A stretch of DNA of 35,582 bases from a virus. Where the stretch lies: the IMG/VR virus record IMGVR_UViG_3300024507_000280, positions 1-35,582 of that record, one strand, 5' to 3'. The position numbers and the translations under genes were made by a program. Shown here piece by piece: positions 8,121 to 32,415 of the stretch. A model generated the notes under the pieces. The model did not search any database and had not been told where the DNA came from. It worked only from the letters and a program-made list of their open reading frames with translations. Within the stretch, counting starts at the first letter, position 1. Every line of letters starts with the position of its first letter.

Positions 8121-8444
8121 TTATACTCCGAAACTTGACCCGCAACCGCAAGTAGTAGTTGCGTTAGGATTCTTTATTGTAAATTGAGAGCCCATTAGCT
8201 CTTCTTTATAATCTATTTCTGCACCTTGCAGATACTGCATACTCATGCTGTCTACTAGCACTTTAAACTCGTCCAAAGGGATTTCAAAATCGTCTTCGTT
8301 TACTTCTTCATCAAACGTAAAACCATAGCTAAAACCGCTGCATCCGCCGCCTTGTACAAAAGTACGCAGAGCTAGTTTAGGATTGCCTTCTTCATAGAGT
8401 AAATCCTTAATTTTTTCTTTTGCTGACTGGGAAATAGTAATCAT
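8121..8444 (-). CDS. A-type iron-sulfur cluster carrier (IscA/ErpA/HesB family)
   Basis: A 107-aa protein of normal family length. Three conserved cysteines are present: one in [11 protein letters not shown] and two in the C-terminal [10 protein letters not shown]. Together they form the cluster or iron site of A-type carriers, which pass Fe-S clusters to apoenzymes. An upstream ATG exists at 8471, but the ATG at 8444 is preceded by GAGGG at the right distance and begins with the family-typical [12 protein letters not shown], so I use it. A late-type element (GATAAATAC) sits just upstream and the giant structural gene starts 5 bases after its stop. This places an Fe-S factor in a late, virion-type transcription unit. 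The fold assignment is firm; whether it serves host metabolism, phage radical SAM enzymes or the virion is unknown. Confidence 0.92.
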
Positions 8445-8503: not shown

Positions 8504-8791
8504 ATGTACTTAGGACAAGAATACGCACAACAATGCCATTATCGCAAGAGCAAGTATGGTACTATGCATGCCTATATGCGTAAAAAAACTGTGCTGATAT
8601 TTCAGTGCGATTGTTGCAGCGGCATGTTTAAGCGCGACAAGGGCAACATGGATCCTAAACGCTTAAACAATAACGTCTATCATGTTTGCGGTGACTGCGA
8701 TGCTAAAAAGTTTGCCCAGAGTAAAGGCGTAGAAGCGAGAAAAGTTTGGGATATGCCTGTCAGTAGTCTTAAGACGATAGACCAACTCTAG
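8504..8791 (+). CDS. Small zinc-finger-like phage protein
   Basis: A 95-aa protein if started at the ATG at 8504; the frame is open further upstream to 8447, but that start would lie against the divergent Fe-S carrier gene. Two Cys pairs, CDCC and CGDC, about 30 residues apart, flank the segment FKRDKGNMDPKRLNNNVYHV and probably bind one zinc. The pattern resembles small conserved unknowns of T4-like phages. An internal start (MHAYMRKKTV) would keep the whole finger. No clear Shine-Dalgarno sequence is visible, so the start is uncertain. The 3' end overlaps the convergent SOD gene by 23 bases. Nucleic-acid binding is a guess from the finger only. Confidence 0.7.
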   Translation: MYLGQEYAQQCHYRKSKYGTMHAYMRKKTVLIFQCDCCSGMFKRDKGNMDPKRLNNNVYHVCGDCDAKKFAQSKGVEARKVWDMPVSSLKTIDQL

Positions 8792-9326
8792 AACTAATAA
8801 CGTTCCAGTTAACGATTTTCCACTGATTGTTTAGGTAACCCTTTTTATCAGCTTGATAATCTAATGCCCAGGCATGTTCCCACCAGTCAATTAAGAATAC
8901 AATATCCATCTTAATTTCGTGATTTTTAATGGTTTTAATTTCACCATTACGAGCTAGATACACCCAGCCGCTGCCTTGAATAGACATAGCAGTTTTTTCA
9001 AATTCTTTCTTAAAATTATCAAAGTCTTTAAAATGTTTAGCAATAAACTCGCCCGCAGACCCATCTGGCTTGTTAGTGCCTTTTGGTGCTTGAAATTGTG
9101 TAAAATATAAGTCATGCAAGAATGCGCCAGCTTCGTTAAAATCTGGATCGCCTTCACCTGAATTATATCGATCTACATAGGCTTTGTAAAGTTTACCGTA
9201 ATGATAGTCCAGCGACTGTTTACTTAGGCTACGCCCGAGTTCAGTTTTTCCGTAAGGTAGCGGAGTTTGCGTTAAGGTCTTAGTTGTTTTGCCTTCGTTT
9301 AAAACATATTTGATAAAATTATACAT
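8769..9326 (-). CDS. Fe/Mn superoxide dismutase with putative capsid-targeting N-terminus
   Basis: A 185-aa Fe/Mn-type SOD. All four metal ligands are visible: His42 (LDYHYGKLY), His71 (FLHDLYF), Asp147 and His151 (DWWEHAWALDYQ). The family reaction is dismutation of superoxide to peroxide and oxygen. The N-terminus is unusual. MYNFIKYVLNE followed by Gly precedes the SOD fold and resembles the capsid-targeting peptides of T4 internal proteins (for example MKTYQEFIAE), which are cut by the prohead protease after a (L/I)xE motif before Ala/Gly. LNE-G fits that rule. If so, the enzyme would be packed in the head and delivered with the DNA; this is inference. The gene is followed convergently by the zinc-finger gene and preceded by a structured gene-free stretch. 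Iron versus manganese use cannot be told. Confidence 0.93.
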   Translation of the reverse strand: MYNFIKYVLNEGKTTKTLTQTPLPYGKTELGRSLSKQSLDYHYGKLYKAYVDRYNSGEGDPDFNEAGAFLHDLYFTQFQAPKGTNKPDGSAGEFIAKHFKDFDNFKKEFEKTAMSIQGSGWVYLARNGEIKTIKNHEIKMDIVFLIDWWEHAWALDYQADKKGYLNNQWKIVNWNVISSRVGLSS

Positions 9327-9341
9327 GGTTTAATATTTACC

Positions 9342-9349
9342 TATAAATA
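9342..9349 (+). promoter_or_regulatory. Late-type promoter TATAAATA facing a gene-free stretch
   Basis: A perfect T4 late consensus TATAAATA on the plus strand. There is no plus-strand gene within 1 kb. The expected start point, about 6 bases after the element, falls at 9354-9356, exactly where the folded region at 9353-9456 begins. It could be chance in an AT-rich genome. Confidence 0.45.
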
Positions 9350-15390: not shown

Positions 15391-15419
15391 ATTATAGCAC
15401 CGAAATGTACTTATGTCAA
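15391..15419 (-). promoter_or_regulatory. Consensus sigma70-type promoter
   Basis: Minus strand TTGACA, 17-base spacer, TATAAT: a perfect match to both hexamers. The -35 overlaps the end region of the upstream radical SAM gene; the leader to the TTG start is about 25 bases. Confidence 0.88.
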
Positions 15420-16781
15420 GCTCTTGCATTCAGCATACAGCTCCGCTAATTCTGGAAATGTGTCCAAAAAATTGGTATTTCTGCGTTTATCGTGCTCATC
15501 AAAAAACAAAGCAAAATCTTTTAGATAATTGGCTTCTCGTTGCTCACCAAACAAGTATTGGATTCGCTCCAATTTAGAAACTTCCCAACCGTGGAATCCT
15601 TTACCATCACAGTAATTTGACTCCATAAATTTTATTTGTTTTGCTATTTGAGCCTTGTATTCTAACGGAAGTATTCTAACACTCATCCATTTTGGATTAT
15701 CCAAATAAGGAATGTCTAAATTGATTGAACGATCCGGGTCGTAGTGTTTTAATTTCATTAACAATACATCTTTTAAAAATTCTGTGTATGAAGTAACAGA
15801 AAGAGCATTGTAAGTTGACATTATACTAAAGTTTGCTTTCGGCACTTCGCTTAAGAATCTATGACAATTGTCTAGCCATGTGTCGTAGTTCATGCCGTTT
15901 CTGATATATTCAGCTTTTGCGCCATACGCTTCGGCACTTGTAAACAACGTAAATCTTTTAACAGCATTTGTTTCTTGAATGATTTTAATCTTGTCAAGAA
16001 ATTTATCAAATAGTTTGTCAGGTAAAACACAATTACTGTTAATAGCAAGTTCTAAATTAGGGTTAGGGTTTTCAATAATATAGTCAAGAACTTTAAAGGT
16101 ATCTTTACTCATTAAAGGCTCACCACCTGTGATACGGAATGTATGAAGTGTTGGATAAATTTCCGGCCACCATTTCCAAAATGCTTCAACATATGGATTA
16201 TGTTCCTTGATAGGAATAGGCATTTTACCTTGATGCTTAGTGTGTTCTAAATTATTGTATTGAAGTGTAGTAGGATACCCACCAAATTTTTCAATTTCTT
16301 CCATCCACTTGCTAGAAATGTGTGGACTACAATAGGCACACTTAAAGTTACAAGCATGACTAAAACTAACTTCAAGATAAGTTGGCTTTATGTTATGTTC
16401 CCAGCCTGCTTCCATCACATCAAAATAACGAGACTTGCCTGCCCATTCGTCTGTGCTTTTATAGATCCTATCACTAAAGATATCTGAATCGGTTGGCGCA
16501 GAGTCTTCAACTTGCCAGCAAAAATGACACTCTTCTGGTCTACTACCAGTCATCATCATTTTACGTTGTTCTTTTTTAAACTTTGTATTGTGTAAAGCAC
16601 TAGGATCCTCTAAAATTTCTTCTAAAGGAATTTGATGTGTATTTGGATGATGGCAACTATGTGTATGTCCGTTTTGCAAATGCAAAGTGACTTGAAGCCA
16701 CTTTGCAAGACACATACCAGGACCGGTTCGATCTAATATTGTTTTAGCTTTTCGAAGCCAAATGATTCTTTCATCTTTCAT
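15411..16781 (-). CDS. Radical SAM protein (twitch-type)
   Basis: A 456-aa protein. The radical SAM motif CNFKCAYC (Cys144, Cys148, Cys151) binds the catalytic 4Fe-4S cluster, and RITGGEPLM is the SAM-binding GGE motif. Upstream of the barrel, Cys24, Cys43, Cys85 and Cys88 with CHHP- and CHFCW-type surroundings resemble the auxiliary cluster segment of twitch-domain radical SAM proteins. The substrate is unknown. The ATG at 16781 is chosen because it forms an ATGA overlap with the previous gene; the open frame extends only to a TTG two codons earlier. Proteins of this kind recur in T4-like marine phages. Confidence 0.88.
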   Translation of the reverse strand: MKDERIIWLRKAKTILDRTGPGMCLAKWLQVTLHLQNGHTHSCHHPNTHQIPLEEILEDPSALHNTKFKKEQRKMMMTGSRPEECHFCWQVEDSAPTDSDIFSDRIYKSTDEWAGKSRYFDVMEAGWEHNIKPTYLEVSFSHACNFKCAYCSPHISSKWMEEIEKFGGYPTTLQYNNLEHTKHQGKMPIPIKEHNPYVEAFWKWWPEIYPTLHTFRITGGEPLMSKDTFKVLDYIIENPNPNLELAINSNCVLPDKLFDKFLDKIKIIQETNAVKRFTLFTSAEAYGAKAEYIRNGMNYDTWLDNCHRFLSEVPKANFSIMSTYNALSVTSYTEFLKDVLLMKLKHYDPDRSINLDIPYLDNPKWMSVRILPLEYKAQIAKQIKFMESNYCDGKGFHGWEVSKLERIQYLFGEQREANYLKDFALFFDEHDKRRNTNFLDTFPELAELYAECKSLT

Positions 16782-17611
16782 GTCCAAAGACTCTCGCGAA
16801 TCTTGATAAGACGAATCATCATTTCTTCCTCTTCCTTAGTATATGCTTCTTCAATTTCTCGAAGTTTTTTATGTGCTTCATCGCTCATCTTTTTAAGTTC
16901 AGGGGTCTTATCGGCGCTACCAAAACTTAAACGACCACCGTTGGCCGCACGACTTGCTTCACAGTAAGCACTCCAACCACTGGCATCGTACGCATCAGGG
17001 CGATTGCGATATGTCACAGTCCACCAAGTATAAAGCTCGATAATTTCTTTGGCGGCCTTGGCTTGATAAGTTGGTTCAGCTAGATGTTTTTCACCTTCGT
17101 CAAGGAACTCTTCGTTGGTTAATGTAGTAGCCCAGCGTAGATATTCAAGCCCAGCTTCTGGGCAACGCCATGTACGCCAACGCAACCAACCTTTACGGTA
17201 CCATGGAACATTGAACTTAGTCTTAGCTTCATCACTCCAAATGCAGTGATGCCACGCTTGTTCTATTTCAACAAAATCCACAAGCTCGTTGAACAAACAA
17301 GGAAGAAAGCGATTGCTAACGTCGCTCCAATTACCAGGTTTAATGTCTCGAGGATGTGCGGTAAGACGATGGCTGTGACTAACCCAGCGATTATTAATAT
17401 AATAGCGTATGTCATTTAGACGATCCGGAATGTAATAAACAAATTTTTGAAGATAGTCGAGTCCTTCTTCGGCAATCCACCAACGAATAGGATGTGCGGC
17501 TTTTGCACGATCTTCCCAGTCGTTCCATTCTTCACTGGTGCCGCACTTGAGCTTTGGTGTGCCACGCAACCAATCCGCAAACGGTCCGATTGTCCAATAA
17601 TGACTACGCAT
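16778..17611 (-). CDS. Trp-rich conserved unknown coupled to radical SAM gene
   Basis: A 277-aa protein with 19 Trp (about 7%), many Tyr and His, and a charged C-terminal helix (EEAYTKEEEEMMIRLIKIRE). No signal peptide or membrane span is seen. It ends in an ATGA overlap with the radical SAM gene and starts 2 bases after the BI-1-like gene's stop. Coupling makes it a candidate partner or substrate protein of the radical SAM enzyme; Trp/Tyr-rich proteins are possible radical targets, but this is speculation. Family not recognised. Confidence 0.8.
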   Translation of the reverse strand: MRSHYWTIGPFADWLRGTPKLKCGTSEEWNDWEDRAKAAHPIRWWIAEEGLDYLQKFVYYIPDRLNDIRYYINNRWVSHSHRLTAHPRDIKPGNWSDVSNRFLPCLFNELVDFVEIEQAWHHCIWSDEAKTKFNVPWYRKGWLRWRTWRCPEAGLEYLRWATTLTNEEFLDEGEKHLAEPTYQAKAAKEIIELYTWWTVTYRNRPDAYDASGWSAYCEASRAANGGRLSFGSADKTPELKKMSDEAHKKLREIEEAYTKEEEEMMIRLIKIRESLWT

Positions 17612-31446: not shown

Positions 31447-32415
31447 ATGAATTTTAACCAAATACCTTTTGAAAATATTGTTCGTTTTGGACAGAGAACT
31501 ATGTTGGACCGACCACTATTTTCTGTGAGTTGGATACTCGGACGTTTTTGTAATTATAATTGCAGCTACTGTTGGCCTTATGCACGAAGTGATAGTGTTG
31601 ACCATCGAACACTGGAAGTCTACACTTCTGTAGTTGATGAAATAAAACGACAAGCAAGAGCTAATGGTTTTAACGAATTTCACTGGAGTTTTAGTGGCGG
31701 AGAGCCAACTGCTTATAAAAATCTTTTGGATCTAGTACAGCACTTGGACGAAAAAGAAAGTTCGTACCAAAGTATCCATATGACTACTAATTTAAGTCCA
31801 GGAAGCAAATGGTGGAAAACTTGGTGTGATAAAACAGGACTGTTACAACGTAGAAGTATAACTGCCAGCTTCCACGACGAGTTCGCTAAAGAACAAGAGT
31901 TTGGCGATAAGTGTTTACAGTTACAATACGAACTAGTTCATGTTACTATTAACCAAGTAATGGTTCCTGAAAAGTTTTATGAACTGTATGAGCGTATGGA
32001 ACGTTTCCATAAACGTGGAATTAATGTAACTCTTAAACCACAAAGTGATCCAACTGCTAGTCATATAGTAGACGGATATACCGATGACATGATTAAACTA
32101 ATGCAAGAAGGATTCCCACAAAAGTCGCAAGGAGAAGAAGTTTATCAAATTCGCCTAAATGACGGAGTGAAAGACTACTACTTTGACCAAGCAGAAAGAT
32201 TTAATGCTTTTGGATTTAATAAATTTCAAAATTGGACTTGCAATAGTGGTTATCAAAGTGTTATAATTAGAGGTAACGAAGTTAAGCGTAGTTACAGTTG
32301 CCATGACGAACCGTTAGGTACACTAGAACACTTTGAATTATTTAAGGAACCTAGACGCTGTATTACACCTACTTGTGTAAGCTCAGCGGATAGTAAAATA
32401 CCAAAATGCAAATAG
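31447..32415 (+). CDS. Radical SAM protein with C-terminal Cys cluster
   Basis: A 322-aa protein. CNYNCSYC (Cys35, Cys39, Cys42) binds the catalytic cluster and SFSGGEPTAY is the SAM-contacting GGE motif. The last 60 residues hold five Cys (NWTC, SYSCHD, RRCITPTC, PKC), an auxiliary-cluster-like end as in SPASM/twitch enzymes. First gene of a plus-strand unit that overlaps the next by 10 bases. Substrate unknown; close relatives modify peptides, RNA or sugars. Confidence 0.88.
   Translation: MNFNQIPFENIVRFGQRTMLDRPLFSVSWILGRFCNYNCSYCWPYARSDSVDHRTLEVYTSVVDEIKRQARANGFNEFHWSFSGGEPTAYKNLLDLVQHLDEKESSYQSIHMTTNLSPGSKWWKTWCDKTGLLQRRSITASFHDEFAKEQEFGDKCLQLQYELVHVTINQVMVPEKFYELYERMERFHKRGINVTLKPQSDPTASHIVDGYTDDMIKLMQEGFPQKSQGEEVYQIRLNDGVKDYYFDQAERFNAFGFNKFQNWTCNSGYQSVIIRGNEVKRSYSCHDEPLGTLEHFELFKEPRRCITPTCVSSADSKIPKCK

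Follow-up and report, generated by a model that had tools for sequence, protein, structure and literature searches.

Why would a phage superoxide dismutase (SOD) carry a short conserved peptide in front of its enzyme fold? The question is raised by a gene in a 35,582-nucleotide stretch of viral DNA (IMG/VR record IMGVR_UViG_3300024507_000280, hereafter referred to as the window). A first-pass annotation of the letters took the start of the product for a T4-type capsid-targeting peptide ending in a prohead-protease site and proposed that the enzyme is packaged in the head and injected with the genome. Here, the gene, its viral and cellular relatives and its surroundings were analyzed computationally. 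The results suggest that the virions probably contain the SOD, which may be delivered together with the DNA.

A superoxide dismutase gene with an N-terminal extension

The features of the locus are collected in Table 1. The SOD ORF has a sole in-frame start, and the start codon is fixed because a stop codon lies two codons upstream. The N-terminal sequence of the product is MYNFIKYVLNEGKTTKTLTQTPLPYGKTEL. The minus-strand segment 9288-9326, ATGTATAATTTTATCAAATATGTTTTAAACGAAGGCAAA, translates as MYNFIKYVLNEGK, which confirmed the annotated eleven residues and the following Gly ahead of the SOD fold; the Pfam match spans residues 21-180 and covers both Fe/Mn SOD domains (Sod_Fe_C, 5e-23; Sod_Fe_N, 1e-6). 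The extent of the peptide had to be corrected: the tag, MYNFIKYVLNEG, occupies codons 1-11, with a predicted prohead-protease cut E11/G12 (here and below a slash marks the cut) and Gly12 as the new N-terminus.

All four metal ligands (three His and one Asp: H42, H71, D147 and H151) are present and are invariant across 23 aligned viral homologues. Residues Y50, W121, H136 and E150 are also present. The closest solved structures found by a PDB sequence search are Bacteroides and Porphyromonas SODs, and the best Foldseek hits of an AlphaFold2 model of the window protein were all SODs. A search of PHROGs with the protein returned no matching family. By its sequence, the window gene is an Fe/Mn SOD with a complete active site.

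Table 1. Features of the SOD locus and other genes of the window (positions in the window)
Feature	Position	Strand	Basis
Fe/Mn SOD ORF, 185 aa	8769..9326	-	Pfam, ligands, PDB sequence matches, fold matches
Capsid-targeting-like propeptide MYNFIKYVLNE, codons 1-11	9294..9326	-	sequence, conservation, disordered in AlphaFold2 model
Late-promoter-like TAAATA, 7 nt before SOD ATG	9334..9339	-	sequence; enrichment at virion genes
Divergent TATAAATA element, back to back with SOD promoter element	9342..9349	+	sequence
IscA-type Fe-S assembly protein (PF01521), downstream of SOD	8121..8444 (start could be 8471)	-	Pfam
Conserved 95-aa gene	8504..8791	+	
Radical-SAM gene	15411..16787		
Radical-SAM gene	31447..32415		

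The IscA-type neighbour is found in the same order relative to the SOD gene in five long SOD-bearing contigs, with 80-87% identity. The 95-aa gene is convergent with the SOD gene and overlaps its 3′ end; it has no Pfam match, and a TAAATA lies 5 nt upstream of it. The window also contains at least two radical-SAM genes as well as genes for ClpP, MazG-like and UvdE proteins.

Conservation of the front peptide

In the AlphaFold2 model, residues 1-15 have pLDDT below 50 and are disordered, which places the conserved front peptide outside the SOD fold of the model. A single match to the processing pattern, [LIVMF]-x-E followed by a small or polar residue, is weak evidence because such matches arise by chance at a rate of about 7-10% (~7% for internal Met windows, ~9.5% for other gene starts); a stricter F4-type pattern is met by chance in ~0.2% of internal Met windows. 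IMG/VR yielded 186 close relatives of the SOD, and a broader search gave at least 560. Forty-nine unique close relatives were compared. All of them have Phe at residue 4, and 48 have Tyr, His or Trp at residue 7. In all 49 the peptide ends in [LIMVF]-x-E, and the next residue is Gly, Asn or Asp. The Glu stands at position 10, 11 or 12, its place varying because the spacer has indels of 1-2 residues.

More divergent viral SODs were grouped into 22 clusters at 75% identity. In 20 of them the peptide ends in [LIVMF]-x-E before G, A, S, D, N, Q or T (binomial probability ~1e-18 if clusters are treated as independent, which they are not fully). The body and the length of the peptide differ from cluster to cluster and the [LIVMF]xE end is retained, as in MEFKFIQKFIIE/G, MDLRQTINLIE/A, MDNEIKKFLTILE/G, MQEDIRKHLELLE/A, MYDIVEKISE/S and MNNLRDLITLIE/D; no such site is present in the L290 SOD. 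The annotated (L/I)xE site before Ala or Gly, seen as LNE/G in the window, is matched by a [LIVMF]xE end in 49/49 close relatives and 20/22 clusters. Judged from these alignments, the conservation of the peptide is much more than chance would give.

In the close relatives pN/pS is 0.144 for the front peptide and 0.196 for the SOD part; purifying selection acts on the peptide no less strongly than on the enzyme. Cellular SODs, the best of which is 46% identical, start at the LPY motif or a few residues before it, or have secretion-type leaders. The annotation had named cellular SODs with the same N-terminus as grounds for dropping its reading; none of those examined carries the peptide.

Fit to the T4 targeting rule and a prohead protease in relatives

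The first 10 residues of T4 IPIII are enough for packaging; residues 4 and 7 of the T4 peptides serve targeting, residues 8 and 10 processing, and gp21 cuts after L/I-x-E (PMC9026906). IPIII begins with MKTYQEFIAE/A and IPI with MKTFKEF. The window SOD fits this rule with F4, Y7 and L-N-E/G.

A gp21-like protease, which the annotation had proposed to look for in the same genome, was not found in the window, which is a 35-kb fragment. It was found in relatives: each of the three longest SOD contigs (356, 161 and 161 kb) encodes an S77 prohead protease of the gp21 type together with a gp23 capsid protein, and the S77 protease is also present in phages PA5oct and Vibrio 2.275.O. The window is syntenic with the long SOD contigs, best with the genome G001 (31 of 51 predicted genes match, mean identity 60%). 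The gp23 proteins of the long contigs read TRKYL[LM]E/SP where T4 has FLTE/A.

A late-promoter-like element at the start codon

Of 135 viral SOD loci, 123 have the hexamer TAAATA, which resembles the core of the T4 late promoter, ending 4-7 nt ahead of the start codon. In a set made of five long contigs and the window, TAAATA was found no more than ~34 nt upstream of 46/100 homologues of virion proteins detected by mass spectrometry (MS) in PA5oct, compared to 122/848 other genes (P=2.5e-12; ~2e-10 without the SODs). The window SOD has a promoter-like element of the virion-gene class at its start codon and is predicted to be expressed late. By analogy with T4, transcription would begin at the AUG or right beside it, giving a nearly leaderless mRNA. 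When late promoter and targeting-like start were required jointly, over all genes, the association was not significant (P=0.08).

Many SOD relatives are preceded by a TTTATA..TAAATA pair. In G001, a back-to-back pair of the same kind separates two divergent neck genes (38071-38112). This pair and that of the window (9334-9349) look like bidirectional late promoters.

SOD-SGNH fusions and other proteins with similar N-termini

At five loci (L012 4822-5835, L029 126-1136, L234, L235 and L236) the SOD ORF runs on in frame into an SGNH/GDSL-like domain with the motifs VVVGDSIALG, SAGTND and LHPTSY; the Pfam assignment of this domain is weak (GDSL_2, E=0.002, below the cut-off of the family). A second [IV]-x-E site is located exactly between the two domains, the junctions reading FTKVISE/SK, TKHIVNE/DK, IQTIVKE/DK and FQTIVKE/DK. 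The arrangement suggests an in-frame fusion of two capsid cargoes that the protease could separate. In G001 a stand-alone SGNH-like/LysM/lysozyme-like protein starts with MRFTEFKLVLKE/NKQ; its relatives were sought in cultured phages and none was found.

The annotation had also suggested a search of the same genome for other proteins with the motif. Unrelated G001 proteins start with MRATEFITE/G, MKVKEILTE/G, MRAKEFLILE/A, MRVIDILSE/A and MKSFTQYLVE/S, the last having a PA5oct homologue flagged as structural by MS. The targeting pattern is strongly enriched in G001 (13/408 vs 5/1780, P ~1e-6), this pattern having been written after G001 was viewed, as some of the enrichment patterns were. In the same test only G003 was enriched among the other genomes (P=0.006). 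Enrichment is modest in Vibrio 2.275.O (P=0.02) and in PA5oct, where MS and non-MS genes differ with P=0.08 if liberal starts are taken for the non-MS genes and P=0.02 if first ATGs are taken.

Several of the G001 starts come from a cluster of short genes (C1 316895-335350) whose otherwise unrelated products begin almost identically, with MRAKEF(L/I)..E, MRATEFITE/G or MKVKEILTE/G. One product has an apparent peptidoglycan-binding segment, and the SGNH-LysM-lysozyme-like protein is encoded in the same cluster, which is a candidate set of capsid cargo. A different arrangement was observed at G002 C1 104142-105902 and in its G001 and G005 orthologues, which contain a repeated (F/L)L(Q/R)(I/V)V(K/Q/S)EAE(L/I)NQP; each copy fits the prohead-protease motif, and the product is perhaps an internal head protein cut at many sites.

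SOD orthologues of cultured phages

A comparison of gp23 placed Phosso, Vibrio 2.275.O and the PA5oct group, all jumbo phages of the T4 superfamily, nearest among cultured phages. The Pseudomonas jumbo phages of the PA5oct group (the gene is named sodB in Callisto and MIJ3) encode an orthologous SOD with 37-41% identity. In PA5oct itself the protein (EST35_0261) begins with MNDSIKKYISIAE/AASSVKK; this peptide, ending in IAE/AA, is unlike that of the window SOD in sequence, and no TAAATA was found at the start of the gene. The gene is annotated as hypothetical, and its GenBank record bears the note ESI-MS/MS, as do 93 CDS of PA5oct in all. The omics study of this phage reportedly counted 93 virion-associated proteins. 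The list also includes ribonucleotide reductase, thymidylate synthase (ThyA), FtsH, ClpP and DNA ligase, likely carry-over enzymes, so the flag on the SOD is supportive and no proof of packaging. The literature examined contained no discussion of SOD packaging in this group.

In Vibrio phage 2.275.O the N-terminal peptide of the SOD is absent, and a search of IMG/VR for relatives of this SOD found none. The C-terminus of the protein (L140 2968-3537) reads KMLDE/SVNIRHLINFISK, and that of a 411-aa protein of the same phage encoded near a structural gene (W01 235552-236787) reads DLHE/SLNSAFSKFLGK. Both tails take the form LxE/S...F(I/L)xK. They may represent a packaging tag placed at the C-terminus, which is conceivable because T4 Alt is processed at both ends (PMC9026906).

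Proposed mechanism and alternatives

In the proposal that we consider likely as a whole, the SOD precursor would be made late in infection from the promoter abutting its start codon. Its first 11 residues would act as a T4-type capsid targeting sequence and bring the enzyme into the prohead core, where a gp21-like S77 protease would cut after Glu11, leaving SOD from Gly12 onwards in the head with the DNA. After DNA packaging, the enzyme would probably be ejected with the genome, as the T4 internal proteins are (PMC9391042), and would clear superoxide from the newly infected cell, perhaps guarding against the early oxidative burst that the annotation suggested. Action inside the particle is the alternative. 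The capsid-targeting reading of the annotation is well supported by the conservation of a peptide whose body has turned over and by gp21 and gp23 genes in syntenic relatives; the late-promoter element, the site at the fusion junction and the MS flag in PA5oct add to it.

The main rival to packaging is a plain cytoplasmic role. The SOD would then be an ordinary auxiliary metabolic enzyme acting at a late stage of infection, for instance as protection for the Fe-S enzymes of the phage, and the peptide a quirk of the lineage, perhaps a translation-start or solubility feature. The conserved IscA-type neighbour and the radical-SAM genes of the window agree with such a role, as do the cytoplasmic enzymes in the PA5oct MS list and the Vibrio 2.275.O SOD that does without the peptide. 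However, the peptide is left unexplained: its [LIVMF]xE end persists as the body changes, it is under purifying selection, it matches the T4 targeting positions 4 and 7, and the same kind of site recurs at the SOD-SGNH junction. We regard a purely cytoplasmic role as unlikely for these reasons. It is very improbable that the peptide directs the SOD elsewhere, for instance to the inner membrane or to a replication compartment, and matches at E/G by coincidence. Its hydrophobic character and its weak helicity in the AlphaFold2 model would suit such a signal, but the strictly small or polar residue after the Glu and the class of the promoter fit head assembly better.

Once packaged by its tag, the SOD could also act within the extracellular particle, shielding packaged DNA or head proteins from superoxide in sunlit water. 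All evidence for packaging applies equally here, and our confidence in this reading overlaps with that in the preferred one, since it is a sub-case of packaging. The T4 precedent for proteins bearing such tags is ejection, which counts against action confined to the particle, a real but less likely alternative. Packaging followed by ejection is the reading that we prefer.

A wider generalization is possible, although we lean slightly against it: a widespread clade of T4-like jumbo phages, represented by several hundred IMG/VR contigs, would load SOD, or an SOD-SGNH polyprotein cut into two cargoes, by means of exchangeable peptides and eject them as an antioxidant and cell-entry kit for the first minutes of infection.

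If the preferred reading is true, phages deliver an antioxidant enzyme with their genome, implying that superoxide is a limiting factor when infection of free-living bacteria is only minutes old. It would also suggest that the T4 capsid-targeting tag is a general system for enzyme cargo in environmental jumbo phages. The [LIVMF]-x-E tag combined with the late-promoter element offers a route to predicting other cargo, and the cultured orthologues of the PA5oct group make SOD packaging testable now.

Comparison with known systems

The annotation presented a virion-borne SOD as new. This is not wholly so because chlorovirus PBCV-1 provides a precedent: its Cu/Zn SOD (A245R) is late, packaged in the virion and proposed to lower superoxide during infection (PMC7019647). 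Both are viral SODs, with late expression and virion packaging established for PBCV-1 and predicted for the phage. The PBCV-1 protein, however, is a Cu/Zn enzyme of a eukaryotic algal virus for which no T4-type tag is reported, whereas the window encodes an Fe/Mn SOD of a T4-like phage. No phage SOD is described as virion cargo in the literature searched. Tagged internal proteins of the T4 type and the virion SOD of PBCV-1 were thus known already, and what would be new is the use of the T4 tag for an antioxidant enzyme. Among solved structures, the closest in both sequence and fold, the Fe and cambialistic SODs of Bacteroides and Porphyromonas (8avl, 1qnn), are ~30-35% identical to the phage SOD and are without an N-terminal propeptide.

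The closest parallel to the predicted processing is with T4 IPI, IPII, IPIII and Alt. Like them, the SOD has a short N-terminal peptide with an aromatic residue 4, an aromatic residue (or His) at position 7 and an (L/I)-x-E cut site before a small residue, as well as a late-type promoter element; a gp21-type protease and gp23 are common to T4 and the SOD-bearing phage group. The tags differ at residue 2, which is Tyr in the SOD and Lys in T4, and in the place of the Glu, at position 10-12 in the SOD peptides compared to 10 in T4. The cargo differs as well, being small anti-restriction or basic proteins in T4, whereas the putative cargo here is a metabolic antioxidant enzyme of cellular ancestry.
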